Of a DNA stretch of 64,000 nt, positions 6,843 to 58,976 are shown one piece after another. Below the pieces are notes generated by a model. The model was given only the letters and a program-made list of their open reading frames with translations, was not told the origin of the DNA and did not search any database. The stretch is from positions 1-64,000 of the forward strand of contig JAGRBZ010000002.1 of the NCBI GenBank assembly GCA_020433805.1, read 5' to 3'. The number at the start of each line of letters is the position of its first letter. The first letter of the stretch is position 1. This DNA is from Anaerolineae bacterium. GTDB taxonomy: Bacteria > Chloroflexota > Anaerolineae > 4572-78 > J111. A program made the position numbers and the translations under genes.

Positions 6843-6851
6843 GAGTTTTCT

Positions 6852-19480: not shown

Positions 19481-21979
19481 ATGTCATATTCTCAGTTAAT
19501 CCAATTTAAACGATTAGAAGAACGCACGCTGATCTTTCTGAACGGCAAGCAGATGATGTTTGCCGTCTTTGGCGGCTTTTCCGGGCTGAGTCTGGCCAAT
19601 ACCCTCGACTTGTCCGGCTGGCCGGTCTGGCTGGCAGTGATTACCGTGACCATCCTGGGGTTGATCATCGGTGCCCGTTTCCGAGGGCTGTATGGCTATC
19701 AGTATCTGGGGCTGCTGGCTCGCGGTCTGACCCGGTTGAACCGCACCGTCGAACCGGCCGAGTTGTATGATCGGCCGGTCGATGCCGACCTGTCTTACGT
19801 GTTGGGCGCACCCGACGGCGGGGCGCTGGTGCTGCGCCAGGCCCCGCCGGCCAGCGAGCGGCAGGTGACCACCTCCTATGAAGCCGCTATCTATCGCCTG
19901 AAGCCGGTCGACCTGGCCCAGTACCATCCCCAGGCGGTGCGGCAGTTGATGCAGCGCTGGAGCGGTTTCTGGGCCGGGGCGCGAGCACCATTACGTTTGT
20001 TGGTGCACTCGACCCCGTTTCACGCCGGGCAGGTGGTCGAAGATGTGCGAGCGGCCGGCCTGGTCGCCCGTGAGGATTGGCGGGCCCGGGCCCTGACTGG
20101 CTACGGTCGCTTTCTGGAGCGGCTAACCCGTGAGGCGGCCATGTACCAGGCCAGCCATGAGATGATTGTCTGGGCCGGTAGCGACGTTGAGGCTCAAGCT
20201 GCCGTTGGCAGTTTGGCCTCCTGGCTGGGCGTCTCGGCTCGCCCGGCTGAACTGACCCCGCTGCTCGAGAGCGAGTATGAACTGAATTTTGACCACCTGG
20301 CTCCGCTCGACCCACGTCAGCCCTACATCGTGCTACTGGTCAGCCACGAGTTCAGCGGCGAGTGGTCTTGGGCCGACCCACTGGTGACCCTGCTGCGCCA
20401 GACCTTTGCCATTTCGGTGGTGGTTGATGTGGAACGCAACCTGAGCGCCAACGAGGCTCTGCGGGAGCTGGTCAAATATGAGAACGTGCTGACCGATGTC
20501 CTGGCCAATGCCCGTAGCCGCGACCCCAAAGCTGAAGGGGCCATGCGCGATGTCCAGTTAGCAATGGCTAAAGCTAACGCCGGGCTGGCCCTGCACTTCA
20601 CGACCGTTGTCGTGGCCGTCAAGGGCACGACCTTAGCCGAGGTCAAGCAGAACGTCGAAGCGGTGCGAACACTCACCGCCGCCCGGTTGTCCTTGGTGGT
20701 GCTGCCCGGTGGGCAAGGCGAGTTACTTAAGTTTTTCACGACCACTCGTCGGCGAGAGATCAACATTCCCGAAATCTCTCACAACGTCACCAGCGACGGC
20801 ATGGCCATCATCAGTGGCCCGCTGGGCTTCCGCCGGCGCAACGAGACGGATGGCATTTTCTGGGGCATTGGCTCGTCCGGCGGTTCCGACACGTATCCCA
20901 TCTGGTGGAACGGGTTTGGCCGCGACCCGGACAAGCCGGCCGCCTATCACGGCATGTTTCTGGGCAAGTCGGGCTACGGCAAAACCGTCTCGATGAACGC
21001 CTTGCTTTACCGGGAGGCGATGCGGGCCACCCAGGTGGTCATGATGGAACCGCAGGGACACTCGAAGCGCCTGGTCGAGTTGGTAGGGGAAGATGGGGCC
21101 AGTTACAACGCCCTGTCGATGGCCGAGATGCAGGTCAATCCGCTCGATCCCATTTACGACGACCTTAATGACCAGAAGAGTTATCTAACCAGCCTCTGCC
21201 GGCTAATGCTCAAACAGGTCGACCCGGAGCGCAACCTCTCCATCCGCGAGTCGGGTCTGCTGGATGCGGCTTTGACGGTGCTGTATGATGGCCTGAGCGA
21301 CCCGCTCCATACCTCGGCCCGTTACGTGCCGCGCCTGGAGCAGCTGTGTCACGAACTGCGCCGGCAGGGGGCTGAACTTTTGGCCGATGACCTGGAACTC
21401 AATTACGTCTACGGTACCCTGGGTCAGGTCTACAACCAGGCCACCAACACCGATGTGGCCCTCGAAGCCAACGTAGTCACCTATGATTTCAAAGATGTGC
21501 CGGAGAGCCACCGCACCCTGATCTACACCTTGGTGCTGGGCCGCATCCAGCGCATTGTCCGTTCGCAGGGACGCCGACGGCGGATCGTGGCCGTGGATGA
21601 ATTCGGCTGGATGGCCCAGGAACCCATTCTGGCCAACATTGTGGCGATGTGGATCAAAACCTTTCGTACCTTTGGCTGCGGCATCTGGCTGGCCGAGCAG
21701 GATCTGATCCGGCTGACCGGTGGGGCGGCTTCGGGCGATTTGTCCGGCCATTCGATTGTCGGCAACAGCGTTTTTCAGTTGTTTTTTCACCACGAGTCGG
21801 CCGCGGCCAGGATGGTCTCCGAGACCTTTCCCAATATGGAACCTTACCTGAATATGATCGAGAGCTTCCCCCGACCCCAGGAGACCGGCATGGCTGAGGC
21901 GGTGCTGCGCATCCCGGATGGGGCCTATCATATGTATATGCTGCTGTCGGATATCGAACGCAGCCTGGTGGGGAGTTAG
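19481..21979 (+). CDS. virB4: VirB4 ATPase with fused N-terminal VirB3-like segment
   Basis: An 832-residue T4SS ATPase. The first ~75 residues hold two transmembrane helices (MMFAVFGGFSGLSLAN and VWLAVITVTILGLIIGA), matching VirB3/PrgI-type proteins that are often fused to VirB4. The ATPase domain has Walker A GKSGYGKT at about residues 495-502 and Walker B IVAVDEFGW at about 700-708, followed by a WLAEQDLIRL motif typical of VirB4/HerA ATPases. It powers pilus assembly and substrate transfer at the membrane. TAGGAGG at 19470-19476 supports ATG 19481. The gene is 2 bp from the next one, so they are coupled. Confidence 0.92.
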   Translation: MSYSQLIQFKRLEERTLIFLNGKQMMFAVFGGFSGLSLANTLDLSGWPVWLAVITVTILGLIIGARFRGLYGYQYLGLLARGLTRLNRTVEPAELYDRPVDADLSYVLGAPDGGALVLRQAPPASERQVTTSYEAAIYRLKPVDLAQYHPQAVRQLMQRWSGFWAGARAPLRLLVHSTPFHAGQVVEDVRAAGLVAREDWRARALTGYGRFLERLTREAAMYQASHEMIVWAGSDVEAQAAVGSLASWLGVSARPAELTPLLESEYELNFDHLAPLDPRQPYIVLLVSHEFSGEWSWADPLVTLLRQTFAISVVVDVERNLSANEALRELVKYENVLTDVLANARSRDPKAEGAMRDVQLAMAKANAGLALHFTTVVVAVKGTTLAEVKQNVEAVRTLTAARLSLVVLPGGQGELLKFFTTTRRREINIPEISHNVTSDGMAIISGPLGFRRRNETDGIFWGIGSSGGSDTYPIWWNGFGRDPDKPAAYHGMFLGKSGYGKTVSMNALLYREAMRATQVVMMEPQGHSKRLVELVGEDGASYNALSMAEMQVNPLDPIYDDLNDQKSYLTSLCRLMLKQVDPERNLSIRESGLLDAALTVLYDGLSDPLHTSARYVPRLEQLCHELRRQGAELLADDLELNYVYGTLGQVYNQATNTDVALEANVVTYDFKDVPESHRTLIYTLVLGRIQRIVRSQGRRRRIVAVDEFGWMAQEPILANIVAMWIKTFRTFGCGIWLAEQDLIRLTGGAASGDLSGHSIVGNSVFQLFFHHESAAARMVSETFPNMEPYLNMIESFPRPQETGMAEAVLRIPDGAYHMYMLLSDIERSLVGS

Positions 21980-27137: not shown

Positions 27138-30074
27138 ATGTCGCGCCTCGGACCCAAGCAAATCCTGCTTATTTTACTGGCCCTGGCCCTCCTTATCGCC
27201 GGGCTCAGTTTTGGCAGCTATTATTTTTCTGTTGAAGAACTCACGACTCGTCGAGGGGGAATGCTCGGTTTTATTCCCCGAGATTACCGCTTATATCTGG
27301 TCGAATATCGGTTGTTAACAGGCATTGTAGCCACGACAATTGTTATTATCAGCGGCGGCGTCTGGCTAACCGCTGAGCTGATCGCCCGGTTGTGGCAGCG
27401 AGCCCGCAACCGCGAATTGGCCACCAATGCCGTCCTGCTGCGCATCGCCCCCCGGGTTGATGAACGCAGCAAATGGGAGGCAGCCGCCGATATGTGGGCC
27501 GCCATTCACTCGACCCTGGCCCGCCCGGGCAAACAGGTTTGGCTGGGCGCGGGACTGCATATGAGCCTGGAAATCGTACAGCAAGCCGGCGAGCGGATCA
27601 CCTTTTATCTATGGGCGCCCCGCCCGGTAGCGGAGACCTTAGTTCGTCAGTTTCGAGCCACCTATTCAGGGCTGGAGATCGAGACCCTCGTCAAAAGTGG
27701 TGCTGACGGGTCCCCTACTGACGAAATTGATGACTACCTTGACTTGCCCGGTAATGAGTCGACTATTGATTTAGAAAATCGTAAATCTGAATTCGAAAAT
27801 CTCGAAGATACCCGAATGGGTGCAAAATGGGCCTGGGCCGACCTGGGCATCGGCTGGGAGGCATGGCGACCGCTCAGAATCAAATTCGCCGGCGATCCGC
27901 TGCCCTCCCTACTTTCGACGCTGGAGGGTCTGGCCCCGGGCAACCGGTTGGCGGCCATTCATTTTGTGCTGCGTCCGGCCGCCGACGGTTGGCAAAGCGG
28001 CGGTCAACGCTTCATTGGAAAACTGCGCGGCGATAACGTCAAAGCAGGCAAGTCGAAACCCAAACTGGGCAGCCAGGAACGGGAGCTAATCAAACAGATC
28101 GAGCAGAAAGCCCAGGCACGTGGGTACGACCTATGCCTGCGGGTTGTTGTGGCCGGACAGGGAGACGTAGACGGCAACCTGGAGCGGTTGATTCAGGTCT
28201 TCGACCAGTTTGGGGCTGATAACAGTCTGACGGTTCGAGCCAGAGGAACTCGGGAGGAGTTGTACCGGGTCACGGGTCGTTTCCTACCGGCAGGCTGGCG
28301 TAACAGTGTTGTCAGTGATTTGGAACTGGCGGCGCTGGCCCATTTGCCCAATCAGGACATCAGCGGCCTGGCTATCATGCGGGCCCGGGCCCGTTTGGAA
28401 AAGCCCAGTCCGGTCTCCTTTGTCGCGCCTGGCGAGTCGCGGGTCATCATTGGTCGCTTTGCCGATGTGCCCACCTTCGGTAGCCAATTATCAGAGATTG
28501 AATATCCCCTCAGCAGCTTGCGCCGCGCTTTTAAGCTGTCCGCAAACGGCGCGGGTGACAGCAATGGGACGCCGGCAAATATTGAGGCGGAACGACCGGT
28601 AGGCATCAAGCTATTGGACGCCCGCCGCCACTTCCACGTCATTGGCCCGACCGGCGTGGGCAAATCAACCATGTTGCTGCGCATGATTTGGCAATACCTG
28701 GACCAGTTCCCCGAGGCGGCGGTCTGGCTGCAAGAACCGCACCAGGACCTGACCCACAAGGTCATTCAGCGGGTGCCACTCTGGCGAGAGAAAGACATCA
28801 TCTGGCTCGATGTGATGGACCCGGAACGGGTGATTGGCATCAATCCGCTCGATGTGCCGCAGGAGGTCGACGTAGGCGCAGTAGTGGCCGACGTGATGGG
28901 CGTCATCCGCAAGGTAATGGGCGCCAGTTGGGAAACGGCGGTGCAGATGCAGGAAATTCTCAACAACGCCCTGCAAGCGGTTCTCGTGGGTCAACCGCAG
29001 CCGACCTTTGTCCACCTCTTTAAGCTACTCTCCGATGCCGATTACCGCTATGACCTGACCTATAACCTCAAAGACCCTATCGCCGCGCCCTACTGGCAGA
29101 GCCTGGAATTGAAGAAGGAGCGGGAACTGGACCAGATGTTTTCCGTACCTCGCCGCCGGATCAACGCCTTTTTGAGCAATCCCATTGTGCGCCGGATTGT
29201 GGCCCAATCCAGCAGCACTCTGGATTTCCGGCAGGCCATTGACAGCGGCAAGGTCATTCTGGTACAGCTTGATGGTCGTATGGGCGGTGAAAACCGGACC
29301 TTCGTCGGGGCGCTGATGATGTACAAGCTCTTTGGGGCGGTAATGAGCCGCATGGACATTCCCGAGGAGCAGCGGCGGCAGGTGGCCATCTGTGTCGATG
29401 AGTTCCAGACCTTTGTCGCCCAGAGCGGCACCGAGTTTGCCGACATCCTGGAGCAGGCCCGAAAGATGGGGGCCAGCCTGACCCTGGCTCACCAGCACTT
29501 GGGCCAGCTGACCCAAGGCGGCGGCGACCTGATCAGTTCGGTGGCCAATAATACCGGCACCAAAATTGTCTTTCGGGCGGAGTCGGCCGACGCCCCGCAA
29601 TTTTTGAAATGGCTGCCGGAGTTACAGAAGATCGAGGATTTGACCACCCTGGCCAACTACCGCTGTTACGTGCGACCCATGGTCAACGGCAGCCCCCAGC
29701 CGGTCTGCACCCTCTACACCTACGCCGACCCGCCCATCCCCGATCCTGAGGTGGAGCTGCGCCAGGGCCGGCGCGGCGAGCCGGAGCCGTTACCGGAAAA
29801 TCCGGGACAGTCCGCGCTGAACGAATTGAAACGGCTGCGAACGCTGCCCTCCGATGAGGCCCGCAAGGAATATTTGAAGCAACTGCCCGAGGAGGGCTGG
29901 ATAGCCTACCTGGCTGCCCGGCGCTATCACGACGCCCTGCGGCGCAATATGTTGATTGAACAGCCTGAGCTTATGCCGGACAAACTGGAACGGGTCCGCA
30001 CCCTGGTACGGCTGGGCTATGGTACGCCGCATTATGAAACTGAAGCAATGGTCGAGAAAATTCTGGAGCACTGA
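27138..30074 (+). CDS. VirD4/TraG/HerA-like coupling ATPase
   Basis: A 978-residue T4SS coupling protein. Two N-terminal transmembrane helices (ILLILLALALLIAGLSFG; TGIVATTIVIISGGVWLT) are followed by a large N-terminal domain. The ATPase core has Walker A GPTGVGKST (about residues 503-511), Walker B VAICVDEFQTF (about 749-759) and an LTLAHQHLGQL sensor motif. This matches TraG/TraD/VirD4 and HerA-type proteins that bring DNA or protein to the channel. TAGGAG precedes ATG 27138. It is paralogous to the ATPase-dead protein at 22992. Similar VirD4-like proteins with a long N-terminal domain are common in monoderm elements. Confidence 0.9.
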   Translation: MSRLGPKQILLILLALALLIAGLSFGSYYFSVEELTTRRGGMLGFIPRDYRLYLVEYRLLTGIVATTIVIISGGVWLTAELIARLWQRARNRELATNAVLLRIAPRVDERSKWEAAADMWAAIHSTLARPGKQVWLGAGLHMSLEIVQQAGERITFYLWAPRPVAETLVRQFRATYSGLEIETLVKSGADGSPTDEIDDYLDLPGNESTIDLENRKSEFENLEDTRMGAKWAWADLGIGWEAWRPLRIKFAGDPLPSLLSTLEGLAPGNRLAAIHFVLRPAADGWQSGGQRFIGKLRGDNVKAGKSKPKLGSQERELIKQIEQKAQARGYDLCLRVVVAGQGDVDGNLERLIQVFDQFGADNSLTVRARGTREELYRVTGRFLPAGWRNSVVSDLELAALAHLPNQDISGLAIMRARARLEKPSPVSFVAPGESRVIIGRFADVPTFGSQLSEIEYPLSSLRRAFKLSANGAGDSNGTPANIEAERPVGIKLLDARRHFHVIGPTGVGKSTMLLRMIWQYLDQFPEAAVWLQEPHQDLTHKVIQRVPLWREKDIIWLDVMDPERVIGINPLDVPQEVDVGAVVADVMGVIRKVMGASWETAVQMQEILNNALQAVLVGQPQPTFVHLFKLLSDADYRYDLTYNLKDPIAAPYWQSLELKKERELDQMFSVPRRRINAFLSNPIVRRIVAQSSSTLDFRQAIDSGKVILVQLDGRMGGENRTFVGALMMYKLFGAVMSRMDIPEEQRRQVAICVDEFQTFVAQSGTEFADILEQARKMGASLTLAHQHLGQLTQGGGDLISSVANNTGTKIVFRAESADAPQFLKWLPELQKIEDLTTLANYRCYVRPMVNGSPQPVCTLYTYADPPIPDPEVELRQGRRGEPEPLPENPGQSALNELKRLRTLPSDEARKEYLKQLPEEGWIAYLAARRYHDALRRNMLIEQPELMPDKLERVRTLVRLGYGTPHYETEAMVEKILEH

Positions 30075-32528: not shown

Positions 32529-32535
32529 ACGCCGT

Positions 32536-33135
32536 ATGAATAGGCCTGTTGAATTTTCGGCCTGGGTGCTTAGCACCACGATGACCCGCTTTACAGTGGG
32601 CTGCAGAGCCCTCCTGCCCCATGTACCGCAATTTGGCGATCTGGTCAAGATCGAGACCACTGCTGAAGTTGCTATCTTTGGCCTAATTTACGATGTGTCC
32701 GTTCAGGATGACCTGGTTGTCCGCCAATTAATTTTGGTTGACAACCTGACCCGGGAGGTGGTGCTAGATCAACAAGAAAACCGGCTGGTTCCTATTGAAA
32801 TTAGCGTTCTCATCGTCGGGTACCGGCGTTTTGGAGGGGAGATTAGACAGGGATTACCCCCGCAACCGCCGGCCAGTCTGGACCGGCTCATTATCTGCGA
32901 CGCGGTTGAGGTGCGGTCATTTACGACGCGGCTCGACTATCTCAGCCTGGTTTTAAACACCCCCTGGCTGATGGCTGACGAGTTACTGGTGGCGCATTTG
33001 GTTCGAGCGGCTCTGGTTCGCCCGGCGGAGCAACGCTATTCCTTTGTTGTTGGGGCCGGTCGCCACTTGGCCCGGCTGCTCGACACCGACCTGGTGCAAT
33101 TGGATTACATCCTAAAAAGGTTGAACCCAAGATGA
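32536..33135 (+). CDS. Stand-alone HAS-barrel domain protein
   Basis: A 199-residue protein resembling the HAS-barrel (HerA/ATP-synthase N-terminal beta-barrel) domain as found in HerA N-termini and in cyanobacterial and Chloroflexi stand-alone proteins. Clues are FGDLVKIE...FGLIYDV, DDLVVRQLI, DQQENRLVPIEISVLIVGY and a GLPPQPPASLD segment. ATG 32536 is chosen but its ribosome-binding site is weak. ATG 32500 would overlap the regulator gene. ATGA couples it to the next zinc-ribbon gene. It may serve as a detached N-domain or adaptor for the HerA-like coupling ATPase at 27138. Confidence 0.65.
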   Translation: MNRPVEFSAWVLSTTMTRFTVGCRALLPHVPQFGDLVKIETTAEVAIFGLIYDVSVQDDLVVRQLILVDNLTREVVLDQQENRLVPIEISVLIVGYRRFGGEIRQGLPPQPPASLDRLIICDAVEVRSFTTRLDYLSLVLNTPWLMADELLVAHLVRAALVRPAEQRYSFVVGAGRHLARLLDTDLVQLDYILKRLNPR

Positions 33136-33347: not shown

Positions 33348-33639
33348 TAACACCATAGCTCCCTACGGTCTGCTGTACAGCCGGGACCCGGACTCGACCG
33401 ATTTTCCGCTGACCGAGATCAAACGGGCCTGCCACTGCTTTCGGCGGCGGCGCGAATTCATTGGGTTAGAGCCGGCCCTTGTCCACTTGCATCCGTCTCA
33501 TCTGCCACTGGTTAACGAGGAGCAACTTGAGCTAACCATTAAGGCCGACATCAGGATTGGCCGGCAATATATCTGGTTGCGGGGCCGGCCCAAAGAAAAT
33601 GATCTTAAGGCCGAGGTGCAAGATGGCTTGCCAGAGTAA
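33331..33639 (+). CDS. Hypothetical protein, 102 residues
   Basis: A 102-residue basic protein without recognised domain. It contains a CHCFRRRREF patch and a C-terminal IRIGRQYIWLRGRP segment. AGGAG at 33322-33326 favours ATG 33331 or the nearby ATG 33337. It overlaps the preceding zinc-ribbon gene by 17 bp, and the next gene starts within its end, so it belongs to the same tightly packed operon. Confidence 0.55.
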   Translation: MTMVADNTIAPYGLLYSRDPDSTDFPLTEIKRACHCFRRRREFIGLEPALVHLHPSHLPLVNEEQLELTIKADIRIGRQYIWLRGRPKENDLKAEVQDGLPE

Positions 33640-34372
33640 CGCAGGACGCATCTCCCAGCTGGCCAGCAGGGTTAGCAGCGGTATCTCGCAATTGTCGAGC
33701 AAGCAAGCCTTCTTCACCGGCCTGGCTGTCGGCGCATCCGGAACCGGGTTAGGGGCGTTACTGGTGACCAACCGGCAGCGGTTGACTAACCTTTTGCAGC
33801 GGACTAAAGCACCACGTCAGGCTCTGGCTGTAAATAGCCAATCCGGGCCGGCCAACGGAACGCCGCGAGTGAAAAAGCAGCCTAAACCGATCCCGGCTCT
33901 GGCTGCCGGCAGTGGGGGTAAGTCCCAACCTAAACCGATCCCCGGCTTAACCAAAAGTGGTTCGAGCCGCTCAACCGCAAAACCCATTCCGGTGCTGGCC
34001 ACTTCACCCACGACCCTGCAAGCTGCCGCCGTTGAAATGAAGACCGGCAGCGATGAACCGTATTTGGCTCAAAACAGCTATCGGGTTGTTCGCGCTGACG
34101 GCAGCGATACCGGCCTGGCTGTCACGCCCTACCTGGACCCCGGCCAAGCCAACGGCAAACCGGCGGTGAAAGCGGATGCCTGGGGCGTGACCCATACCGG
34201 CAGTGGCGCGCTGGTGGATGGCCCCTATGACAACATTGAGCAGGCTCAGGAACTGGCCACAAAATTATCGAACCTGTCCTGGAGCGGGGCCATGTCAATG
34301 CAGGAGGTCAGCCAGGCTCAACGGATTGTGCAGGCCCATCGGAAATCAAGGGCAGGTGATTGTGAGTTGTGA
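33623..34372 (+). CDS. MSC-leader protein 1 with DGSDTGLA domain
   Basis: A 249-residue protein. It opens MACQSNAGRISQL, the leader shared by eight proteins here (M-[SA]-C-x3-[SA]-x-R/x-[IA]...G[IL]...[SG]-[KQ]). A hydrophobic glycine-rich helix (FFTGLAVGASGTGLGALLV) and a linker with three KPIPxL repeats follow. The C-terminal ~90 residues form domain B: YRVVRADGSDTGLAVTP, WGVTHTGSG and an amphipathic tail. Domain B recurs in the proteins at 34362 and 42039. ATG 33623 is supported by GAGGTG just upstream and by the family alignment; upstream in-frame ATG 33557 is rejected. The function is unknown and it is probably membrane-associated. Confidence 0.7.
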   Translation: MACQSNAGRISQLASRVSSGISQLSSKQAFFTGLAVGASGTGLGALLVTNRQRLTNLLQRTKAPRQALAVNSQSGPANGTPRVKKQPKPIPALAAGSGGKSQPKPIPGLTKSGSSRSTAKPIPVLATSPTTLQAAAVEMKTGSDEPYLAQNSYRVVRADGSDTGLAVTPYLDPGQANGKPAVKADAWGVTHTGSGALVDGPYDNIEQAQELATKLSNLSWSGAMSMQEVSQAQRIVQAHRKSRAGDCEL

Positions 34373-35735
34373 ATATGCGGCGGGACGCATCGCCCGGCTT
34401 CGAGCCGGAATTGGACAGTTGGCCAGCAAGCGTGGCTTTTACGCCGGCCTGGCCCTGGGCGGGCTGGGTCTGGTAAGTGCGGGTTTGGTGGCCCTGGCCC
34501 GGCGGCGCAGCGATCCCACGGGAGAGAGCCCATTGAGACAGCAACCCGCCCTGATTGATCCCAATCAGGTGCCGCAACTGCCTGCCCGCACCCAAATTGC
34601 GCCTGCTCGCGCCCTATCGGCAGCGGAACGGTGCCAGACCTGCCAGACACCGGCTCGGAGCAAACAGGGGCCATGGTACAGCATCGGCGGGCGCTCCTAT
34701 TGTCAGGACTGCGCTCCGGCCGCCGCCCGTCAGGCCGATATAGACCTGCTGCTGCCGGCTACATCTGGGCAAAACGGGACGGCAGCGATCAGTAACGTCA
34801 GTGCCGGCGGTGGCAGCAGCCGGGTCAAAGCGGTTCAAGCTGGGGTCGACTATCTTTCCCCGGAGCGCAGGGTTGAAACACGCCTGGTTGAGTCTCGAAT
34901 TGGTCTGAACGTGGGCAATGCCAACGAGCCGGCTCTGTTTGTGGTGGACAAAGCTTATGTCTTGCTCCGACCTGACGGTAGCGACACCGGTCTGGCCCTG
35001 ACACCCAATCTGAAGGCCGAGACCGGCGCTGATGGTCAAGCGGTTATCCGCGAAGATACCGGCCAATGGTGGATCACCCACATTCCCAGCGGGCGGGTGG
35101 TGACCGATCAAGCCTATGGCAACCTGGAAACGGCCCACATGTTGGGCAGCATTCTGGCCCAAATGGATTGGACTCGCGACGAGACCGAGTTCTCCACCGC
35201 CGACTATCGGCGGGCCAGCGCTACGATTACGTTTTTCAACCAGTCGCTGGCCGAGGCCAAACAAGAGGTGGGGCAGGGAAACCGTGCTCTGTCGGGCCAG
35301 CCAATGAAGCCGTCAACGCAGGCTGCCCCCTCCGTCCCAACCGGCACCCGCCGCCTGCCGGATAATGAGTCGCTGGCAGGCAGACTGGTGGCCGACGGCT
35401 ATGGCGGCGTCTCGCGGGTGCTGGAGGATAACGGGGATAAGCTCTTTCTGATTGACAGCCTGGGCAAACGGTACGAAATCTACCGGCAAGGGGCCCGCAC
35501 GCCCGACGAAAGTGATTTCGAAATGTGCCGGGTGGCTATGTCGTTCGATCCGGCCAGGCAGCCGGAAGCCAGTTGTGGCGCCTGCCGGCGATCAACGAAA
35601 GATACCGGCGCCGGTGAGATGTGGTACAAGATGGGCTGGCAAGCCTTTTGTGAAGGCTGCGCCACTGAGTACGCGGCCAACGAGGGCTACATCAAGGAGG
35701 AAGAGATTGACGAGCATATGATGGAGCTAGCGTGA
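34362..35735 (+). CDS. MSC-leader protein 2 with two zinc ribbons and DGSDTGLA domain
   Basis: A 457-residue protein. GTG 34362 gives MSCEYAAGRIARL, matching the family leader, and AGGTGA lies upstream. Order of parts: leader; a hydrophobic helix (FYAGLALGGLGLVSAGLVAL); a zinc ribbon CQTC...YCQDC (about 92-125); domain B with LLRPDGSDTGLALTP and WWITHIPSG (about 200-300); and a C-terminal second ribbon CGACR...FCEGC (about 405-440). It overlaps the previous gene by 11 bp and the next by 4 (GTGA). An ORF extension to 34203 is out of register with the leader and is rejected. The function is unknown. Confidence 0.72.
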   Translation: MSCEYAAGRIARLRAGIGQLASKRGFYAGLALGGLGLVSAGLVALARRRSDPTGESPLRQQPALIDPNQVPQLPARTQIAPARALSAAERCQTCQTPARSKQGPWYSIGGRSYCQDCAPAAARQADIDLLLPATSGQNGTAAISNVSAGGGSSRVKAVQAGVDYLSPERRVETRLVESRIGLNVGNANEPALFVVDKAYVLLRPDGSDTGLALTPNLKAETGADGQAVIREDTGQWWITHIPSGRVVTDQAYGNLETAHMLGSILAQMDWTRDETEFSTADYRRASATITFFNQSLAEAKQEVGQGNRALSGQPMKPSTQAAPSVPTGTRRLPDNESLAGRLVADGYGGVSRVLEDNGDKLFLIDSLGKRYEIYRQGARTPDESDFEMCRVAMSFDPARQPEASCGACRRSTKDTGAGEMWYKMGWQAFCEGCATEYAANEGYIKEEEIDEHMMELA

Positions 35736-36505
35736 GCTGCTCGAGTTCCTCCAGCCTCATTGGACGGGTAGCCGGTCGCTTGGGCATAGCCTGGTTGGGT
35801 AGTAAAAGCGGTTACACCAGCGGCAGCACGGCACAGGTCTCGTTCTTCGACCCGCAGCCGGCGACCAGAACAACGAAGAAAAGACTATCGAAAAAGAGCC
35901 AGGCCCGTAAAACAAAGGTAGGCAGTGCCAATGATCAGATCTCATTCTTCGCTGACAACCAGGCCGCTGCTAGCCAGGAACAACACCACCCTAACGAGAG
36001 GACCGGGCAGTCGCCACTGCCAACCCAACGCCAAATCAAGATTACGAACGATTTTTCAGCGGAGGAGTTGCAGACCATCTCCGTTCAACTCCGGCTCGGT
36101 GTGGCGGCGGTGTCCCGCCAGATCCGGGAATTGAACGGCGGCGCTTTGCGGGGGATTGGCCACAGCGACCCGCGACCGCTGGATTGGGCCCGCTCAGACC
36201 GGAAGAATTTTGAATTTCTGGTCAGCCAACTCGATGAAGCTCGCCGGGGTCGAGGATATCTGGACACTACGGCCTTGAATAAAGCGGAGTTGGTCGACCT
36301 GTGGGACTTTGCCCGCTTCGAGGCCGATCGGGCCATGCGTAACATCGACCACCTCCAGTCGGGCTTAAGCCACCTCAAGGGGCCAACGGCTGAATACCTG
36401 ACCGGGCGGCACCAGCTGGAAGCGCGCTTTTACAGCTTTGTGGCCGGGCAGGTTGAAACGATGATCCCGCCCGAAAAGATCGAAGCTGCGAAAGCGTGGG
36501 AATGA
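35732..36505 (+). CDS. MSC-leader protein 3
   Basis: A 257-residue protein starting GTG 35732 as MSCSSSSSLIGRVAG, with the KSGYTSG element of the shared leader. A basic disordered linker follows, then a helical C-terminal domain unlike the other family members (DPRPLDWARSDRKNFEFL; ALNKAELVDLWDFARFEAD). GTGA overlap couples it to protein 2. There is no hydrophobic segment after the leader. Function unknown. Confidence 0.65.
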   Translation: MSCSSSSSLIGRVAGRLGIAWLGSKSGYTSGSTAQVSFFDPQPATRTTKKRLSKKSQARKTKVGSANDQISFFADNQAAASQEQHHPNERTGQSPLPTQRQIKITNDFSAEELQTISVQLRLGVAAVSRQIRELNGGALRGIGHSDPRPLDWARSDRKNFEFLVSQLDEARRGRGYLDTTALNKAELVDLWDFARFEADRAMRNIDHLQSGLSHLKGPTAEYLTGRHQLEARFYSFVAGQVETMIPPEKIEAAKAWE

Positions 36506-36570
36506 GCGAATCTACGAATTTACGGATTTACGAATGGTGCTCATTCGTCCATTCGTAAATCCGTTTATTC
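36506..36570. repeat. Palindromic intercistronic spacer (TTTACGAA words)
   Basis: Left arm GAATCTACGAATTTACGG plus ATTTACGAATG is answered by CATTCGTCCATTCGTAAATC and CG. The words repeat with a period of about 9 bp. It precedes the AAGGAG of the next gene. A similar right arm occurs near 57690-57720, and related words occur at 24911. Confidence 0.65.
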
Positions 36571-36587
36571 AACAAGGAGTGTGACCT

Positions 36588-37352
36588 ATCAGTTGCAGTA
36601 AGAACAGCGACCGAATTACCGGAACCGCATCGTTGAAAACCGGCATCAGCAACATTTCGGGTAAAGTGAGCAATATCACCGGCCAGATATCCAGCACGGT
36701 CAGTCGTGGCCTGGGCCGGTCGGCCACAGCGGGTATGACCGTGCTGAACAGCATCGATCCGCCCGGCTCGCTTGATGTGCTACTGCCGCTGGCCGCAGTT
36801 GGCGCGCTGCTGGGCGGCAATCAAACCCGGCTGCGGCTGCTGAATACGGTCGGCGCGGCTCAGGTGGCCCGAGCGATCAGCACGGGGTTGGGTACAGGCA
36901 TGGGACGGCTGAGCCGGAACGGCGCTGTCCAATCCCGCAACTTCTTTAACGGCCGGGTGCAAATGCAGAGCTGGCCGTCGCGCCTGACCCCGGCCCTCAA
37001 TGCCCGGGATATCCAGGGCTTGCCCTTGACGGTGCAGGCCAGCCGGGGCCAGATGTTCGAAAGCCGGGGTAAAACCTGGCATTTGGGGGTGACCACAGTT
37101 AAGACAGGCCGAGGCGAACGGACGTTGGGGCACTTACAAAGCCTGGCCGCGCCAGCCAGCCATTACTACTTCAACCGCGCCTTGCCGGAAACAACCGTGG
37201 CGGGGATCATTGGCGGGCAGCGCGAGTTTGAACCAAAAAATCTGCCCGGCTTTGCCGGCGAGGTAACCGAAGTCGAGTCGCTGGTGCCGGCCCTGTCTCA
37301 GGTCAAGAAGTGGCTTATTCAACTGCACGTCTTTTGGGGAGGTCCCTCTTGA
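36588..37352 (+). CDS. MSC-leader protein 4 with WH/THLQS domain (apparent ATC start)
   Basis: The family leader is intact (x-S-C-S-K-N-S-D-R-I), but the codon at the expected start is ATC (36588-36590). It lies 8 nt after AAGGAG (36574-36579), with an in-frame TGA at 36582-36584 just upstream. So translation either starts at AUC or at TTG 36633, which has no ribosome-binding site and would remove the leader. The predicted 254-residue product then has GISNISGKVSNITGQ repeats, a hydrophobic stretch, and domain A (about 145-254): KTWHLGV, RTLGHLQSL, YYFNR, LPGFAGEV. It ends overlapping the next TTG start. Confidence 0.65.
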   Translation: MSCSKNSDRITGTASLKTGISNISGKVSNITGQISSTVSRGLGRSATAGMTVLNSIDPPGSLDVLLPLAAVGALLGGNQTRLRLLNTVGAAQVARAISTGLGTGMGRLSRNGAVQSRNFFNGRVQMQSWPSRLTPALNARDIQGLPLTVQASRGQMFESRGKTWHLGVTTVKTGRGERTLGHLQSLAAPASHYYFNRALPETTVAGIIGGQREFEPKNLPGFAGEVTEVESLVPALSQVKKWLIQLHVFWGGPS

Positions 37353-38371
37353 GCTGCGAAAAACAGTCGGCCCGGATAGCCGCCACGGCGGCGGTCAGTG
37401 CGGGGATCAATACCATCAGCGGCAAAGCCAGCAATGTCATCGGAGCGGTGAGTAACAAAATTGGTGGCCAGATTGCTGGGGCGGTTCAAGCTGGTCAATC
37501 GAGCGGCAAGGCGATGCTGGTCACGGTGCAGCGGCAAGCCGGGGCGGCGGTCGAGCAGTGGGTTGATACTCAGGATACGCTCAACGAGCAGGTGTTGGGC
37601 CGAGTAGCGCCGGTCTCCAATGCCGTACTCCGCAAAGTGGATCGTCCTGCGGTGACCGCAGCCAAAGCCGCGCCTTATATTGCCGGGGCCTTGGCCACAC
37701 TGCGCGTTCGCGGCTACCTGGTCACCCAACAAGGCAGCGCACCCATCGCCGCCGTGGCCGTAGCGCCACGCTCAATGGGCGAGATCATGCGCAACCGGCG
37801 GGTGCTGGGCCAAGCCCGCCGGACTATTGGGGTCGCTGGGGCAGTTAGCGCCCTGTCTGCCTCCGCCGCCGTCTGGGCTACAAAAGATCAGGGCGATGAC
37901 CAAACGTTGACCTTGCAGAAAAATGAAAAAACTCTGGCCGAAGTTACCTTTCAGAAATCGGCCAGGATGACCGGGTTTTTGAATAAGCTGGATTTGATTG
38001 GCTCTCACCGGCTGGGCAAAAACGTGGTTTTCAGCGAGGGCGATGTCCTTCGGGCAGCCAAAGGCGGCGCCTGGCATCGAGGCACCAGCGTGATTGAGAC
38101 ACCTGGTGGGCAGCGCACCATCACCCACTTGCAAAGCCTGAAGCTGCCGGCCCAGCATTTCTACTTTGACCGCAAGCTGTCCGCTGGGGAAGTGGCCGGT
38201 CTGGTTAGCGGCCACACAAAAGCTAACCGGCTGCCGGGGTATGTGGGGGAGGTACATCCTGTAGAGAACCTGGTGCCCAGTTGGGGGACGACCAAGAAAG
38301 CCATGATCACTACCCGTTTATATCATCCCCCGGCTGAGGCAGGCTGGGTGGTCTCGGAGAAAAAAGAATGA
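37349..38371 (+). CDS. MSC-leader protein 5 with WH/THLQS domain
   Basis: A 340-residue protein. TTG 37349 overlaps the previous stop (TTGA) and follows GGGGAGG at 37336-37342. It gives MSCEKQSARIAATA, then GINTISGKASNVIGAVSNKI, closely matching protein 4. A helical middle with little charge is followed by domain A: GGAWHRGTS, RTITHLQSL, FYFDRKL and LPGYVGEV. An in-frame upstream start at 37310 lies inside protein 4 and is rejected. ATGA overlap couples it to protein 6. Function unknown. Confidence 0.72.
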   Translation: MSCEKQSARIAATAAVSAGINTISGKASNVIGAVSNKIGGQIAGAVQAGQSSGKAMLVTVQRQAGAAVEQWVDTQDTLNEQVLGRVAPVSNAVLRKVDRPAVTAAKAAPYIAGALATLRVRGYLVTQQGSAPIAAVAVAPRSMGEIMRNRRVLGQARRTIGVAGAVSALSASAAVWATKDQGDDQTLTLQKNEKTLAEVTFQKSARMTGFLNKLDLIGSHRLGKNVVFSEGDVLRAAKGGAWHRGTSVIETPGGQRTITHLQSLKLPAQHFYFDRKLSAGEVAGLVSGHTKANRLPGYVGEVHPVENLVPSWGTTKKAMITTRLYHPPAEAGWVVSEKKE

Positions 38372-39174
38372 GTTGTTCAACGAATTCGGCACAGGCCGGT
38401 CGGGCTGGGTTGATGGCTGGCCTGTCAAAATTAACCGGCCAGGCCGGCTACACCAGCGGGGTCATCTTCACCCAGGCGACCCAGGCCCTGGATCGGGTGG
38501 GACAGTTGAGCGCGCCGGTAACTAACTTGGCGCTGCGAGCTATCGAGCCGACCGGTTCCCGGGCCGCCAGGAAACGGGCTGCCACGGTCAAATTAACCGG
38601 TACGGCGATTGCCGTAGGAGCCAGGTTGGCCGGACTGGCCTCACCTTTAGCTAAGGTCAAACTGGCGGCCATGGTGAGCGAGAAGGTGACCGGCAAACTT
38701 GGCACAGCAGCAGCCACCCTAAGCGATACCGGCCCGGCCGGCTCGGTGACCACCGAACGTCGCCGCCTGCTGTTTTTTAAATCGAAACAGACGGTAGAAC
38801 TGAATCGCTCCGGCTTAACTGGCTGGCTGAACCGGCGGAACGTGATTGGTCAGCGAGAACTACAAGCCAGTAATGGAATGGTGTTTACCATTGGTCGTAA
38901 AAGCTGGCATCGCGGCACGGTCACCTTTGATGTGGACCAAAACAAGCGCACGATTACCCACCTGCAAAGCCTGAGTTATCCGGCCGAGCATTACTATTTT
39001 GACCGCCGCCTGTCCAACCAGCAGGCGGTGGCGCTGGCCGGCGGCCAAAGTAAACCCGAAACAATCCCCGGCTTTATTGGTCGCATCAGCAAAACTGAGA
39101 TGCTCTGCCCGGCCTGGGCCGGGACGAAAAAGGCTTTGATTTTAGCGCAATTACACTGGCAGGATAAACGATGA
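38368..39174 (+). CDS. MSC-leader protein 6 with WH/THLQS domain
   Basis: A 268-residue protein beginning MSCSTNSAQAGRAGLMAGLS, followed by GQAGYTSG as in protein 3 and an Ala-rich helical region. The C-terminal domain A has KSWHRGTVT, RTITHLQSL, YYFDRRL and IPGFIGRI. It is the shortest member, and its domain A is close to that of protein 5. The ATG overlaps the previous stop (ATGA). After its stop a tiny overlapping frame leads into protein 7. Confidence 0.75.
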   Translation: MSCSTNSAQAGRAGLMAGLSKLTGQAGYTSGVIFTQATQALDRVGQLSAPVTNLALRAIEPTGSRAARKRAATVKLTGTAIAVGARLAGLASPLAKVKLAAMVSEKVTGKLGTAAATLSDTGPAGSVTTERRRLLFFKSKQTVELNRSGLTGWLNRRNVIGQRELQASNGMVFTIGRKSWHRGTVTFDVDQNKRTITHLQSLSYPAEHYYFDRRLSNQQAVALAGGQSKPETIPGFIGRISKTEMLCPAWAGTKKALILAQLHWQDKR

Positions 39175-39239
39175 GTCAAAATATTATTTATCTCTCATCT
39201 TTCATTTTTTATCCTGGGGAGGTTCCGCTTGTCTTGTGA
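39171..39239 (+). CDS. 22-residue linking ORF over a palindromic spacer
   Basis: ATG 39171 overlaps the stop of protein 6, and the frame ends at TGA 39239, 10 bp inside protein 7. The same stretch is an inverted repeat (AGGATAAACGATGAG answered by CTCATC and TTTTTTATCCT), so it is also one of the palindromic spacers. It may be translated only to couple the two genes. No function is claimed for the peptide MSQNIIYLSSFIFYPGEVPL. Confidence 0.3.
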   Translation: MSQNIIYLSSFIFYPGEVPLVL

Positions 39240-40455
39240 AACCTCAGCCCGGGCCGTTGGCAGCGTTGCCCGGCGTAACGGCGTGATGGGCCAGGTCAGT
39301 AAGTATCTCAACACCCTCGGCAATTGGAGTACCTACCGGGATTTGAACAGCGTTGAGGATATTCCCGAACGGGTGGGACAGGTGACGGCCGCTTTTTTTG
39401 GCCTGGAGGGCGGCCTTTCAGGCTTGGGTAAAAATGGTTTTCCAAAACTGGCCGGTATCCTGGGGGCGGTGATGGCGGTTCAAGCCCTGGAACAGGTGAC
39501 CGGGGCTGGGGTCACCTTTGGTGCTCGTCTTTTAGGCCGGGGAGAGCCGGTGGGCAAATATCGCGGCATCATCTTGCGTAAGAGTCCCTTGACGCCCCGC
39601 ATGGCCGGCGCGGTCAACCGGCTGAGCGGCGGGCGATTGCTTGAAGCCAAAGGTTACTATTTTTTTGAGTCAGGCCGTACCTGGCACAGCCAGACGGCCA
39701 CGGTTCAGGTAGGGGATACCCCCAAGACGCTGACCCACGTCCGCAGCTACAGCCTGCCTTACCGGGAATATTACTTTGACCGGGAGTTGTCGCCCCAGAC
39801 CGTGGTCGATGTGGTCAAGGGCGACCGCGACCCCGATACCGTGCCCGGCTTCATCGGCAGCATCAATGAACTGGAGAATACCACCCCGCTGGGTGGGGTC
39901 AAGCGGGCTTTCTTTGCTGCCAACTGGCTGCTGATCGATGAAGGCGAACGAGATGAAGGCGGTCCCGGCTTTATCGATTACGACGCTCTGATCAAGGGCA
40001 GACCGGCCGGCTCGACCAACAGCAGCGGCTATTATCAGGTTTCCCGCGCGCCGGCGTATGCCAATAGTCGCGGTAGTTGGCCCTCGACCACCAGCCAACC
40101 GGTTTCGCCCCTGACCGGGGCCCGGACAGCGCCGGTGAGATCGACCGGCGGCAGCCCGTCGCAACCGTACGGCACGCAATATTTTCGCGGCGGCAATGTA
40201 GCACCGCCCAGTGGTGATCCTTACGAGCGAATCCAGGATCGTTATCGAGCGCCTAACGGCCAGCAGTACCCGCTGCTGGTTCGGGCTCTTAAGACCAACC
40301 CGATCACGATGACCAAGAAAGCCGACGCCATTTATTACGATGGGGAGATGAAACGCTGGCGTGAAATCGTGGATGATGAGGTTCAAGTCGCCCTGGCCCA
40401 AGAGGTTGAGGCCGGCAAACTCAAGGTGACCCAAGATTGGCATAGCCATTTGTGA
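39229..40455 (+). CDS. MSC-leader protein 7 with WH/THLQS domain and C-terminal extension
   Basis: A 408-residue protein. TTG 39229 follows GGGGAGG and gives MSCETSARAVGSVARRNGVM. A region with a hydrophobic helix (LAGILGAVMAVQALEQ) precedes domain A (RTWHSQTAT, KTLTHVRSY, YYFDREL, VPGFIGSI). A Ser/Pro-rich linker and a C-terminal beta-like domain follow (ITMTKKADAIYYDGEMKRWREIVDDE). It is paralogous over its whole length to the protein at 57747, which lacks the MSC leader. Function unknown. Confidence 0.75.
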   Translation: MSCETSARAVGSVARRNGVMGQVSKYLNTLGNWSTYRDLNSVEDIPERVGQVTAAFFGLEGGLSGLGKNGFPKLAGILGAVMAVQALEQVTGAGVTFGARLLGRGEPVGKYRGIILRKSPLTPRMAGAVNRLSGGRLLEAKGYYFFESGRTWHSQTATVQVGDTPKTLTHVRSYSLPYREYYFDRELSPQTVVDVVKGDRDPDTVPGFIGSINELENTTPLGGVKRAFFAANWLLIDEGERDEGGPGFIDYDALIKGRPAGSTNSSGYYQVSRAPAYANSRGSWPSTTSQPVSPLTGARTAPVRSTGGSPSQPYGTQYFRGGNVAPPSGDPYERIQDRYRAPNGQQYPLLVRALKTNPITMTKKADAIYYDGEMKRWREIVDDEVQVALAQEVEAGKLKVTQDWHSHL

Positions 40456-40540
40456 TTTGTCATTTGTCGTTTGTCCTTTGTTATGCGGTACCACGAAGCG
40501 CGCACCAGGCAAGTGACAAATGACCAGTGACCAACAACCA
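40456..40540. repeat. Palindromic intercistronic spacer (ATTTGTC words)
   Basis: The left arm is made of tandem ATTTGTGATTTGTCATTTGT words and the right arm of GTGACAAATGACCAGTGACC and AACAA, around a central GGTACC. It fills the gap before AAAAAGGAG and has no T-tract. Confidence 0.6.
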
Positions 40541-40553
40541 AAAAAAGGAGAAC

Positions 40554-42035
40554 ATGATGACAACTGATGATACAAATCCCACAACAGCCCAAGCCCGTTT
40601 ATTTGACCACCAGGACGAGATTTTTGATGACGTGGTCTTCGAAGAGGAGGCATTTGATCTGGAAGCCTTGCTGGGCTATGAAGAGACGCCGCTGCTGCTG
40701 GTTGATACCGACCCGGAGCGGGCCGTCGCTCGCCAAAAGGAAATGATGGACCACTGTTTTGGCGGCATTGGCGAGGAGCGCAAAGAAGAAAAAAGAATGG
40801 GCCTCGCTATGCAGCAACTGGATATAGAAAATCGTCATTCGCTGCTTTTGCTGTTAACCTACCAAGAACCGGAGGCTTTGATCACGCATCTGGGCCGGTG
40901 TTTGGTTAACCCGGACTACGGCTACGGCGAGCGCGGCTGCAACGGGCGCACGATTGCCCAGGCTATGGTTGCCCTGGCCGAGGGCGATGACTTGAGTGGG
41001 GTGGCCACCGCCTGGCTGACTGCCCATCAGGAGTTCCAGCAACGAGTGTTGAACGGCCAGCCCTTCAGCTTCCGCTCCCTCTTTGACTTTGCCGACATTG
41101 ACGCCTTTGTGCCGGTGGTGCAGCGGGTGGGCGATATGAACTGGCAGCTTGGCGTAGAGGGCGAGGGCAAATCGCGGGTATTTCAAGGTGCGTTTGACGC
41201 CATCTGGCCCGCGTTGTGCGATACCTACGTGGAGTGGTCGGAAGCGGACAATCAGACCTGGCTGGACGATTTACAGCGCCGGGCAGCCCAGCTGCCGGAC
41301 TCGATCCTACGTACCGCCCGGGCTGAGGGATTGCGAAAAGAGTTCAACCGGATTGAGGTGCAGGCTGATCAGGTCATCCTGCATACCGAGCGCCCTTCGA
41401 CGCGCTCAGGACAGGTGGGCGAAGGTTGGCCGCGCAGCCTTATTTTTGGTGACCAGATTGGCCTGAGTCGTTTATCGGGGCATAGCTTCTATGAGCTTGT
41501 GTGGGAGGGTGGGCTGCACGTCCGCCGCTTTGAACTGTCCAGTACCACCCGCAATCGCCTGCCGATTGAACACATCGAACTGGCCACCGCCCTGGCCGAA
41601 ACGTTGGCCCTTGAATACGACATTTCTTTACCCCCAATAACCGCCGAAGCGGTTGAGGCCGCTTATCTGCGCCGGATGAAGGCCAAACGGGCCGAGTTAG
41701 GCGAACCTCAATCACGGGAGTTGCCCCCGGCAATCCAGGGTAAGCCCATGGCCGAATACCGGGTCAATAACATCGTGGCCACCCTGCTGTACGGCGGAGC
41801 GGATTTTGCCTACATTGCGCCGGGCAACAACGGGCAGGAACAAGAGAAGACGGCCATGTTGTTGCAACGAAATGAGCAAAAAGGGGTGATAGTTGCTTTG
41901 CCGGTCGTCAAAGGTCGCCCCCGGCGCGGTAGCCCCTTGATGACTACTCCTCTAGAAGGGATGAATTTACGGGAAGGTGCATGGCTGCGGGCCGTGACCG
42001 CCTGGGGTGCCTGGTTGGTCTCGGTGTCGCCCTAA
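40554..42035 (+). CDS. Unknown cytoplasmic protein, 493 residues
   Basis: A 493-residue protein with no family recognised. The first ~60 residues are acidic (DEIFDDVVFEEEAFDLEALL). The rest is an alpha/beta mixture with several Trp and an ERGCNGRTIAQAM segment. There is no signal peptide or clear membrane helix. AAAGGAG at 40544-40550 gives ATG 40554 (or 40557). Near residue 282 the frame is interrupted by RPSTRSGQVG, encoded by a dispersed repeat (41394-41415) that keeps the frame. It lies between MSC-leader proteins 7 and 8 and so belongs to that cluster. Confidence 0.65.
   Translation: MMTTDDTNPTTAQARLFDHQDEIFDDVVFEEEAFDLEALLGYEETPLLLVDTDPERAVARQKEMMDHCFGGIGEERKEEKRMGLAMQQLDIENRHSLLLLLTYQEPEALITHLGRCLVNPDYGYGERGCNGRTIAQAMVALAEGDDLSGVATAWLTAHQEFQQRVLNGQPFSFRSLFDFADIDAFVPVVQRVGDMNWQLGVEGEGKSRVFQGAFDAIWPALCDTYVEWSEADNQTWLDDLQRRAAQLPDSILRTARAEGLRKEFNRIEVQADQVILHTERPSTRSGQVGEGWPRSLIFGDQIGLSRLSGHSFYELVWEGGLHVRRFELSSTTRNRLPIEHIELATALAETLALEYDISLPPITAEAVEAAYLRRMKAKRAELGEPQSRELPPAIQGKPMAEYRVNNIVATLLYGGADFAYIAPGNNGQEQEKTAMLLQRNEQKGVIVALPVVKGRPRRGSPLMTTPLEGMNLREGAWLRAVTAWGAWLVSVSP
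41394..41415. repeat. Dispersed CTTCGAC-GCTCAGGACA repeat inside a gene
   Basis: CCTTCGAC, CGCGCTCAGGACAGG: a short imperfect-palindromic sequence of the widespread TTCGAC...GCTCAGGACA type. It is inserted in frame in the 493-residue gene, adding about PSTRSGQ. A second copy lies at 56961-56982 inside the primase-helicase gene. Confidence 0.7.
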
Positions 42036-42038
42036 CCG

Positions 42039-42839
42039 ATGGCCTGTGAGTCCCGCTCCAGACAACTGGCCCTGGTCTCCACCGTAGCAGGTATCCCGAC
42101 CACCGCCAGCCAGCGCGGGTTTTATGCGGCGCTGGCCGCCGGAACAGCTTTGGGTGCCTTGCTGCTGGGACGTTGGCTGACCCGTCCAAATAAATCACTA
42201 TCAAACCAACCGGGTTCAGTGCCTACCTTGACCGGGCAGCTTCAACTTGATCCCATCCCCGGTGACCAATTGCAGGACCAACAGTGCTCCGGCTGCCGGT
42301 CAAAAGCCCAGGATAAACGAGGTCTCTGGTATACTATCCGGGGCTCAACCTATTGCCCGGATTGCGCGCCTATAGCCGCCCGCCAGGGCGGTTTTAGTTT
42401 GGGCGTGCGTTCGGCAAGTATGAAGCGTGGCGCCGTGTTCAACCCTGACGATACCCCCTCGGTTGCGATCAAACTCAAACCTGGACGGGTCAGAATCGGG
42501 GTGACCCAGGTTGAAGGTTACACTGTGTTGCGAGCGCGTGACCGCCAGGAAACCGGCTTGACCATTACCCCCGAGTTCAAGATTGATAGCAACGGGCAGG
42601 TACAGGTGAACAAAAACTCCTGGTTTGTGAATTATGACCGGGTAGGTCAGCCGGTGGGTGGCCCTTTTCGGACCCGGCAAGAGGCTGAGGGTCTGGCATC
42701 GGAATTGGCTCGCTTCGATTGGAAGCGGTCTATTGAGGAGTTTAGCGACGAGGAAATCAGGGGGTCGGTCAGCTTGGCCAATAATTATCGAGAAAATCTG
42801 ACCTTCAAGAAATATATGGAGGTAAGCCAGGCATCCTGA
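42039..42839 (+). CDS. MSC-leader protein 8 with zinc ribbon and DGSDTGLA-like domain
   Basis: A 266-residue protein starting MACESRSRQLALVST, with a hydrophobic helix (GFYAALAAGTALGALLLG), a zinc ribbon CSGC...YCPDC (about 87-113), and a divergent domain B (VLRARDRQETGLTITPEF; SWFVNYDRVG). It is a shorter paralogue of protein 2 without the C-terminal ribbon. It begins 3 bp after the previous stop with a poor ribosome-binding site, so it may rely on coupling. It is the last member of the cluster. Function unknown. Confidence 0.7.
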   Translation: MACESRSRQLALVSTVAGIPTTASQRGFYAALAAGTALGALLLGRWLTRPNKSLSNQPGSVPTLTGQLQLDPIPGDQLQDQQCSGCRSKAQDKRGLWYTIRGSTYCPDCAPIAARQGGFSLGVRSASMKRGAVFNPDDTPSVAIKLKPGRVRIGVTQVEGYTVLRARDRQETGLTITPEFKIDSNGQVQVNKNSWFVNYDRVGQPVGGPFRTRQEAEGLASELARFDWKRSIEEFSDEEIRGSVSLANNYRENLTFKKYMEVSQAS

Positions 42840-57735: not shown

Positions 57736-57746
57736 GAGGACAATCT

Positions 57747-58976
57747 ATGATCTACAACCAAAACAGTAACCTGACCTCTCCCCGCAACGGCATCCTGAGC
57801 CAGGTGCATCGTTACCTGAACACCCTGGGTAGTTGGAGCAGCTACCGTGACCTCAATCGTCCTGAAGAGATCCCCCAACGGCTGGCCAATCTCACCACCG
57901 CTTTCTTTGGCCTGGACGGCCTGACCGGTAACGGCTTACCCAAAGTGACCGGTATCCTGGGAGCAATCATGGCCGTTCATGCCCTGGAGCAGGTCAGTGG
58001 CAGCCTGGCCACCTTTGGCATACGGTTGTTGCTGCGGGGCGAACCGCTGGACCAGTATCGAGGGATCGTCCTACGCCGCAGCCCAGTGACGCCGCGAACT
58101 GCCCGCGCTCTGGGCTGGCTCATCGGCAGCCGGCTGGTCGACGCCGAGGGGGTCTACTTCTTCGAGTCGGGTCGAACCTGGCACAGCCAGACGGTGACCG
58201 TCGCGCTGTGGGAGACCCGGCGCACCTTGACCCATCTGCGCAGCCTCAGCCTGCCCTACCGCGAGTTTTATTTTGACCGGGAGGTCGCTCCCCAAACCCT
58301 GGTCGACCTGGTCAAAGGCAGCCGCGCCCCCGACTCAATCCCCGGTTTTATCGGCAGCGTCAATGAGTTGGAGACCATTACCAGCCTGGGCTATCTCAAG
58401 CGGGCTTTCTTCGCCGCTAACTGGCTGCTGATCGAGCCGGGGGAACGGGACGATGGCAGCCCCGGCCCGGTTGATTATGGGGCCTTGATCCGGGGCAAAC
58501 CGCCCGGCAGCGGCGGTCTGGGTAGCAGCGGCTATTCACGACCGCTGGCACCCTTGCCGTTTTCCGGACCTGGCGCCGGCCGTCCCGGCAGTAGCTGGCC
58601 GTCCACGACCCATTACGCCCCAGCCGTTTCAACCCACCCGACTCGGCTGCCAGATGCGGCCAACGGTACCTCCCGCGCCGTACCGCTCTGGCCCAACCCT
58701 GAACCGGTGACCGTTAGCGTCCCCCCGCCGGCCGATGAGCCCTATCTCCGCATCAAGGCTCGCTATCAAACCCCGGATGGCCGCTACCATCCTCTGCTGA
58801 TCCGGGGCATCACCACCCACCCGATTACGCTGGTCAAGAAAGCCGATGCCATTTACTACGACGGTCAGACCCGCCGCTGGTACGAGATTGTGGATGATGA
58901 GGCCCGTCTGGCCCTGGCCAAAGAAGTCGAGGCCGGCACGTTGAACGTTACTGCAGACTGGCAGCATCAGCTCTGA
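57747..58976 (+). CDS. Leaderless paralogue of MSC protein 7 (WH/THLRS domain)
   Basis: A 409-residue protein collinear with that at 39229: QVHRYLNTLGSWSSYRDLN, a hydrophobic TGILGAIMAVHALEQ, domain A (RTWHSQTVT, RTLTHLRSL, FYFDREV, IPGFIGSV), a Ser/Pro linker, and the C-terminal KKADAIYYDGQTRRWYEIVDDE domain. Instead of M-S-C it begins MIYNQNSNLTSPRNG from ATG 57747, which follows AGGAGGA. An upstream in-frame extension to 57681 lies in the spacer and is rejected. It sits far from the family cluster, in the replication operon. Confidence 0.75.
   Translation: MIYNQNSNLTSPRNGILSQVHRYLNTLGSWSSYRDLNRPEEIPQRLANLTTAFFGLDGLTGNGLPKVTGILGAIMAVHALEQVSGSLATFGIRLLLRGEPLDQYRGIVLRRSPVTPRTARALGWLIGSRLVDAEGVYFFESGRTWHSQTVTVALWETRRTLTHLRSLSLPYREFYFDREVAPQTLVDLVKGSRAPDSIPGFIGSVNELETITSLGYLKRAFFAANWLLIEPGERDDGSPGPVDYGALIRGKPPGSGGLGSSGYSRPLAPLPFSGPGAGRPGSSWPSTTHYAPAVSTHPTRLPDAANGTSRAVPLWPNPEPVTVSVPPPADEPYLRIKARYQTPDGRYHPLLIRGITTHPITLVKKADAIYYDGQTRRWYEIVDDEARLALAKEVEAGTLNVTADWQHQL

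Follow-up and report, generated by a model that had tools for sequence, protein, structure and literature searches.

Gene content of the window

The window, by which we mean the whole 64,000-nucleotide stretch analysed here (Anaerolineae bacterium assembly GCA_020433805.1, contig JAGRBZ010000002.1), contains a conjugative-type region with genes for a VirB4-like ATPase, a TraG-like ATPase, an M23 peptidase, a sortase, a ParA-like protein and Replic_Relax. Adjoining this region, as the original prediction from sequence had it, is a cluster of eight genes whose products begin with the same short N-terminal peptide, called the leader below. The genes of the cluster and those discussed with them are as follows.

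33623..34372, + strand: leader protein B1; the leader (33623-33736) is followed by a marginal hydrophobic segment, a basic linker and a 'TGLAVTP' domain
34362..35735, + strand: leader protein B2; starts at GTG; behind the leader come a hydrophobic segment, zinc-ribbon-like CxxC pairs, a TGL..TP domain, a predicted SH3/Tudor-like barrel and a second CxxC pair
35732..36505, + strand: leader protein C; starts at a GTG that overlaps the preceding stop; the leader and a basic linker precede a soluble domain, which is conserved in the C354 and G296 clusters described below
36588..37352, + strand: leader protein A1; starts, apparently, at ATC; has a HYYFDR-type domain
37349..38371, + strand: leader protein A2; TTG start overlapping the preceding stop
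38368..39174, + strand: leader protein A3; ATG start overlapping the preceding stop
39229..40455, + strand: leader protein A4; TTG start; HYYFDR-type domain and an additional C-terminal domain
40527..42035, + strand: leaderless 502-aa protein within the cluster; candidate partner of the leader
42039..42839, + strand: leader protein B3; ATG start, stop one codon upstream
57744..58976, + strand: leaderless A4 paralogue outside the cluster, downstream of the PRTRC genes; keeps RNGI..Q..RYLNTLG, lacks M-S-C
19481..21979, + strand: VirB4-like ATPase; shares 74% identity with its counterpart in the G296 element
27138..30074, + strand: TraG/VirD4-like coupling ATPase; shares 69% identity with its counterpart in the G296 element

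The transfer region opens with the sortase-family gene (9608-10615). Also present in the window are a BREX-like trio (248-8267) encoding a BrxC/SspC-like ATPase, PglZ and BrxL, with no methylase recognised among the sequence read, and a ubiquitin-like PRTRC operon (48491-52840), in which the gene for a Ub protein composed of two tandem Prok_Ub domains is followed by E2-like, JAB and E1 genes.

Sequence and conservation of the leader

Translated from their starts, all of the eight proteins (8/8) begin [MVLI]-[SA]-C, and in each the leader occupies about 36 residues, in which these first three are followed by a short polar tip, a small-residue stretch and then the motif G[IVL]..[LA].[SG]K..[FY].[AS]G, or in a narrower form GI..[LA].[SG]K..[FY].[AS]G, which forms the C-terminal end of the leader. 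The starts of four of the genes overlap the preceding stop codon. The N-terminus had been described as M/V/L-[SA]-C, which holds for seven genes; the eighth, at 36588, reads I-S-C from an ATC codon located one codon past a stop and preceded at about 8 nt by AAGGAG. Ordinary start codons begin only at 36633, within the leader, and from the sequence context ATC appears to be the actual start, although it could be a sequencing error of ATG.

Beyond the window there are further copies of the leader, all with the cysteine at position 3. Six are on another contig of the source genome (C354, L009), with gene order as in the window; twelve are on contig C8 of a related genome, Anaerolineales bacterium H5_CFX7 (G296); and four more, single or paired, were found on contig C770 of the source genome and in genomes G261 and G200, giving a set of 30 leaders with those of the window. 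Cys3 is present in 30/30, encoded by TGC in 14 and TGT in 16. Residue 2 is serine in 27 and alanine in 3, spread over eight codons, and the start codons are GTG (13), ATG (10), TTG (6) and ATC (1). Such free variation in the start, Ser2 and Cys3 codons led us to reject the idea that the start is conserved for reasons at the DNA or RNA level. An in-frame stop interrupts two of the leaders (TAA in L021 8666 and TAG in L112 3448), through either decay or assembly error.

Profiles built with one protein family left out found the leaders of the held-out family, with best E values of 4e-10 for B, 3e-10 for C, 7e-14 for G and 2e-8 for A, where some individual members scored weakly, including in family A, and the two copies with in-frame stops were left unscored. 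These searches and the additional copies bear out the claim that one leader is shared by all eight window proteins. A profile of columns 4-36, from which M-S-C had been removed, also found the leaders, and [SA]C stood just upstream in every one, untrained copies included; the one non-leader ORF within the score range (L116) lacked the motif and came from a genome chosen as a top match among 396. In the G296 element, codon usage predicts that 50.2% of identical leader residues share the same codon; the observed figure is 47.6%, and this absence of excess codon sharing indicates that selection acts on the peptide and excludes recent DNA copying.

The columns of the leader differ in what they follow. 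At residues 4-9, identity is 36% among different proteins of one element and 18% among orthologues across elements (permutation p=0.0005), whereas the other columns follow orthology (39% versus 30%). The within-element signal at residues 4-9 comes chiefly from G296 (0.45), is weak in the window (0.24) and is absent from C354 (0.12). Such likeness within an element is what one would predict for a tip that adapts to a partner specific to the element.

Protein bodies carrying the leader

Behind the leader are bodies of at least eight unrelated families, designated A, B, C, WYL-like, E, G, H and helicase, between which BLASTP gave no match at E ≤ 0.01 and profile-profile comparison gave probabilities of ≤ 4.4%. 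The window holds three of them, A (36588, 37349, 38368 and 39229), B (33623, 34362 and 42039) and C (35732), mutually unmatched, in agreement with the prediction of at least three unrelated C-terminal architectures. What the sequences show is one short peptide, maintained by selection at the protein level, on no fewer than eight unrelated proteins belonging to a single family of conjugative-type elements.

Families A and B are tandem paralogues, A with a HYYFDR-type domain and B with zinc-ribbon-like and TGL..TP domains. The WYL-like body matches Pfam WYL at E 0.0079, below the cut-off. The suggestion that the leader proteins are envelope components suits families B, E and G, which have marginal hydrophobic segments after the leader, and H, a membrane protein whose glycine zippers match below the cut-off, but does not suit family C, the WYL-like protein and the helicase, which do not resemble membrane proteins. 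In G296, the leader and a ResIII/DEAD-type helicase occupy different frames; we infer that this leader belongs to the helicase via frameshifts, because the stretch leading into the long helicase frame is a continuation of the N-terminal module that belongs to the helicase family itself. Several further genes of the G296 element are broken, pointing to assembly errors or a decaying element.

Among curated families, the window leader proteins had only sub-threshold matches in Pfam, none among the NCBIfam and PADLOC models scanned, and only weak ones in PHROGs. AlphaFold models of an A and a B protein both gave the leader a pLDDT <50. For the family A model, the top Foldseek match was DcrB (E 0.26), and fold matches were scattered, with CapZ at Z 6.4 and 4.5 Å, the TnsE C-domain at Z 5.5, and DcrB at Z 4.5 over 81 residues by VIA-align (DcrB/PsbP-like fold). 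The family B model contains a Tudor/SH3-like barrel, a small and common fold, at residues 336-382 (Z 7.2 over 48 residues). These fold searches of the A and B models yielded no functional match, and the leader profile searched against PDB sequences gave chance-level matches only.

Leaderless copies of the A body are found in the window (57744), in G221 and in G296; they lack M-S-C, retain RNG[IL]..Q..RYL[ND]TLG and adjoin PRTRC genes. Genome G051 encodes a leaderless fused protein with A- and B-like parts. These copies indicate that the bodies can exist without the tag.

Distribution

Among 396 genomes drawn across the class, the leader profile found the source genome (G000), G296, G200 and G261, along with two matches in G171 and G066 that we attribute to chance, one lacking M-S-C and the other lying in a stop-containing frame. 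From 400 genomes drawn across the phylum it returned the source genome only. The genome scan scores limited candidates per genome, such that this rarity may be overstated; the few genomes in which the tag was seen imply few independent lineages behind it. No leader was found at E <0.5 in G269, a near-complete assembly of a genus-mate of H5_CFX7, suggesting that the tag comes with the element. H5_CFX7 was the sole relative found in the named genome collection, and searches of viral contigs (families C and B), plasmids (A4) and phages (C) found none. On its contig C8 (L021 9951-15048), the element's own gyrase B- and A-like genes adjoin the leader genes.

Co-occurrence of the leader with VirB4 and TraG genes, which had been put forward as a check, is seen on both long leader-bearing contigs (the window and G296 C8), whose VirB4 and TraG genes are of the same type. 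In G200 there is a broken remnant with no TraG match, the contigs of G261 and C354 are short, and C354, C663 and C110 are too short or degraded to show such linkage. TraG homologues (E 1e-10) are present in 36 of the 396 genomes, including three of the four with leaders, and numerous genomes that lack the leader encode distant TraG homologues.

Comparison with known systems and alternative explanations

That no described system has this pattern, as first stated, agrees with our searches of family libraries, which gave no match above cut-off, and of the literature, in which we found no description of the leader or of the H5_CFX7 element. The leader does resemble several known signals in part. 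Lipoproteins processed through Lgt and LspA likewise have a small residue followed by cysteine near the N-terminus, but they require an n-region and a hydrophobic h-region ahead of the lipobox [LVI][ASTVI][GAS]C, and the leader has neither a signal peptide nor a hydrophobic core: its cysteine is residue 3, preceded by two residues, and the genes 36588 and 42039 have a stop one codon ahead of the start, which makes a signal peptide with a hydrophobic core impossible. The classical lipidation of Cys3 once proposed for these proteins is thereby contradicted. A prepilin-like class III signal would need a hydrophobic helix right behind the cleavage motif in every protein; a hydrophobic stretch lies there in several B, E and G proteins only and is absent from C and the WYL-like protein. 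Targeting peptides of bacterial compartments are similar in that unrelated cargo proteins reach a common structure by means of a single short peptide; those encapsulation and targeting peptides are not known to carry an invariant Cys3, and the leader is accompanied by no recognised shell protein. The prePAAR motif of T6SS effectors, which serves loading, is another short conserved N-terminal motif placed before hydrophobic segments and varied C-terminal parts, but it consists of AARxxDxxxH, is followed by a PAAR domain and occurs with Eag chaperones (PMC7773334). AARxxDxxxH is absent from the 30 leaders, which have M-[SA]-C instead, Pfam finds no PAAR domain in the window members, the bodies are not toxin-like, and the neighbourhood is of the T4SS type.

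The leader could be a translocation signal by which the coupling ATPase sends these proteins into the recipient along with DNA, which is the main rival reading, though we consider it unlikely. It would accord with the position of the cluster after the transfer genes and with the presence of the tag on helicase-type and WYL-like proteins. It is supported by the analogy of F-type conjugation, which moves many plasmid and host proteins alongside DNA (PMC8406263, PMC11288057), and by one artificial Legionella substrate that has a proven N-terminal type IV secretion signal (PMC10100965). The known signals of conjugative substrates are, however, mostly C-terminal or internal and have no single common sequence (PMC11288057); the hydrophobic or glycine-zipper segments of several tagged proteins make channel passage less likely, and many distant T4SS loci lack the tag. 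Lower still we place a membrane anchor, in which Cys3 would be acylated by a non-lipoprotein route, the Lgt/LspA route being excluded, or a weakly amphipathic helix would insert. The net charge of residues 1-35 (+1 to +5), amphipathic stretches in several members with a hydrophobic moment of up to 0.58, and the hydrophobic segments behind the leader in B, E and G are consistent with this, but the moment is low (0.16-0.3) in many, and C and the WYL-like protein have no hydrophobic segment. We know of no bacterial enzyme that acylates the cysteine of a non-exported N-terminus.

It is improbable that the leader is a propeptide removed by an element-encoded protease, for example near K.[AG][FY].[AS]G. 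Its end is a conserved small-residue motif, which in family B resembles a prepilin-like K-G/A-F junction ahead of a hydrophobic stretch, but the motif is loose in family A, no such stretch follows it in C, the WYL-like protein or the helicase, and cleavage there would leave the conservation of Cys3, far from the putative cut, unexplained. It is very improbable that the leader is targeted by the ubiquitin-like pathway encoded in the PRTRC operon (tandem Prok_Ub, E1, E2-like and JAB): the pathway lies in the same window and beside leaderless A paralogues, yet it is precisely the A copies linked to PRTRC that have no leader. PRTRC systems are present in other bacteria (PMC7466150, among other reports), and the leader was not seen in bacteria known to have them. 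Most disfavoured of all is a functionless leftover from tandem duplication of one ancestral gene start. Tandem paralogy within A and B would suit such an origin, but the bodies are unrelated, codons are randomised at identical residues, Cys3 is invariant, and the linkers directly behind the leader have diverged while the leader itself has not.

A proposed docking tag and its candidate partner

Neither a signal peptide, a lipobox nor a prepilin signal suits every member. The simplest reading of the leader is a modular N-terminal docking tag that gathers element proteins through a putative element-encoded partner near the conjugation machinery, to which we give an even chance of being correct. 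The partner would bind the leader, with Cys3 and the residues just behind it as the probable contact site, where Cys3 might serve as a thiol contact or metal ligand, form a disulfide or be covalently modified. Membrane-associated and soluble element proteins would thus gather in a single complex, which most likely sits at the conjugation machinery or close to it. A bolder form of the docking-tag reading, which we put forward tentatively, is an undescribed Cys3-dependent N-terminal sorting code by which the element might label unrelated proteins, DNA enzymes and membrane proteins among them, for one element-specific receptor, with the tip co-evolving within each element. It is rare for a short N-terminal tag to sort many unrelated proteins, and where one does it usually points to a machine or a compartment. 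If the leader is a docking or transfer code, it would reveal the way in which a conjugative element of a monoderm host organises its proteome or exports it, and it would provide a ready fusion tag together with a clear candidate receptor.

That candidate is the leaderless protein encoded at 40527, with the VirB4/TraG complex as the second choice for the docking partner. Homologues of 40527 were found in exactly G000, G261 and G296 among 337 genomes, which are the three with intact clusters, although 40527 sits in the same gene cluster and linkage alone could explain the co-occurrence. A protein of unknown function encoded at 32410-33132, an extra copy of which is on the element, had also been considered as a partner and was dropped because it is present in all 12 family genomes.
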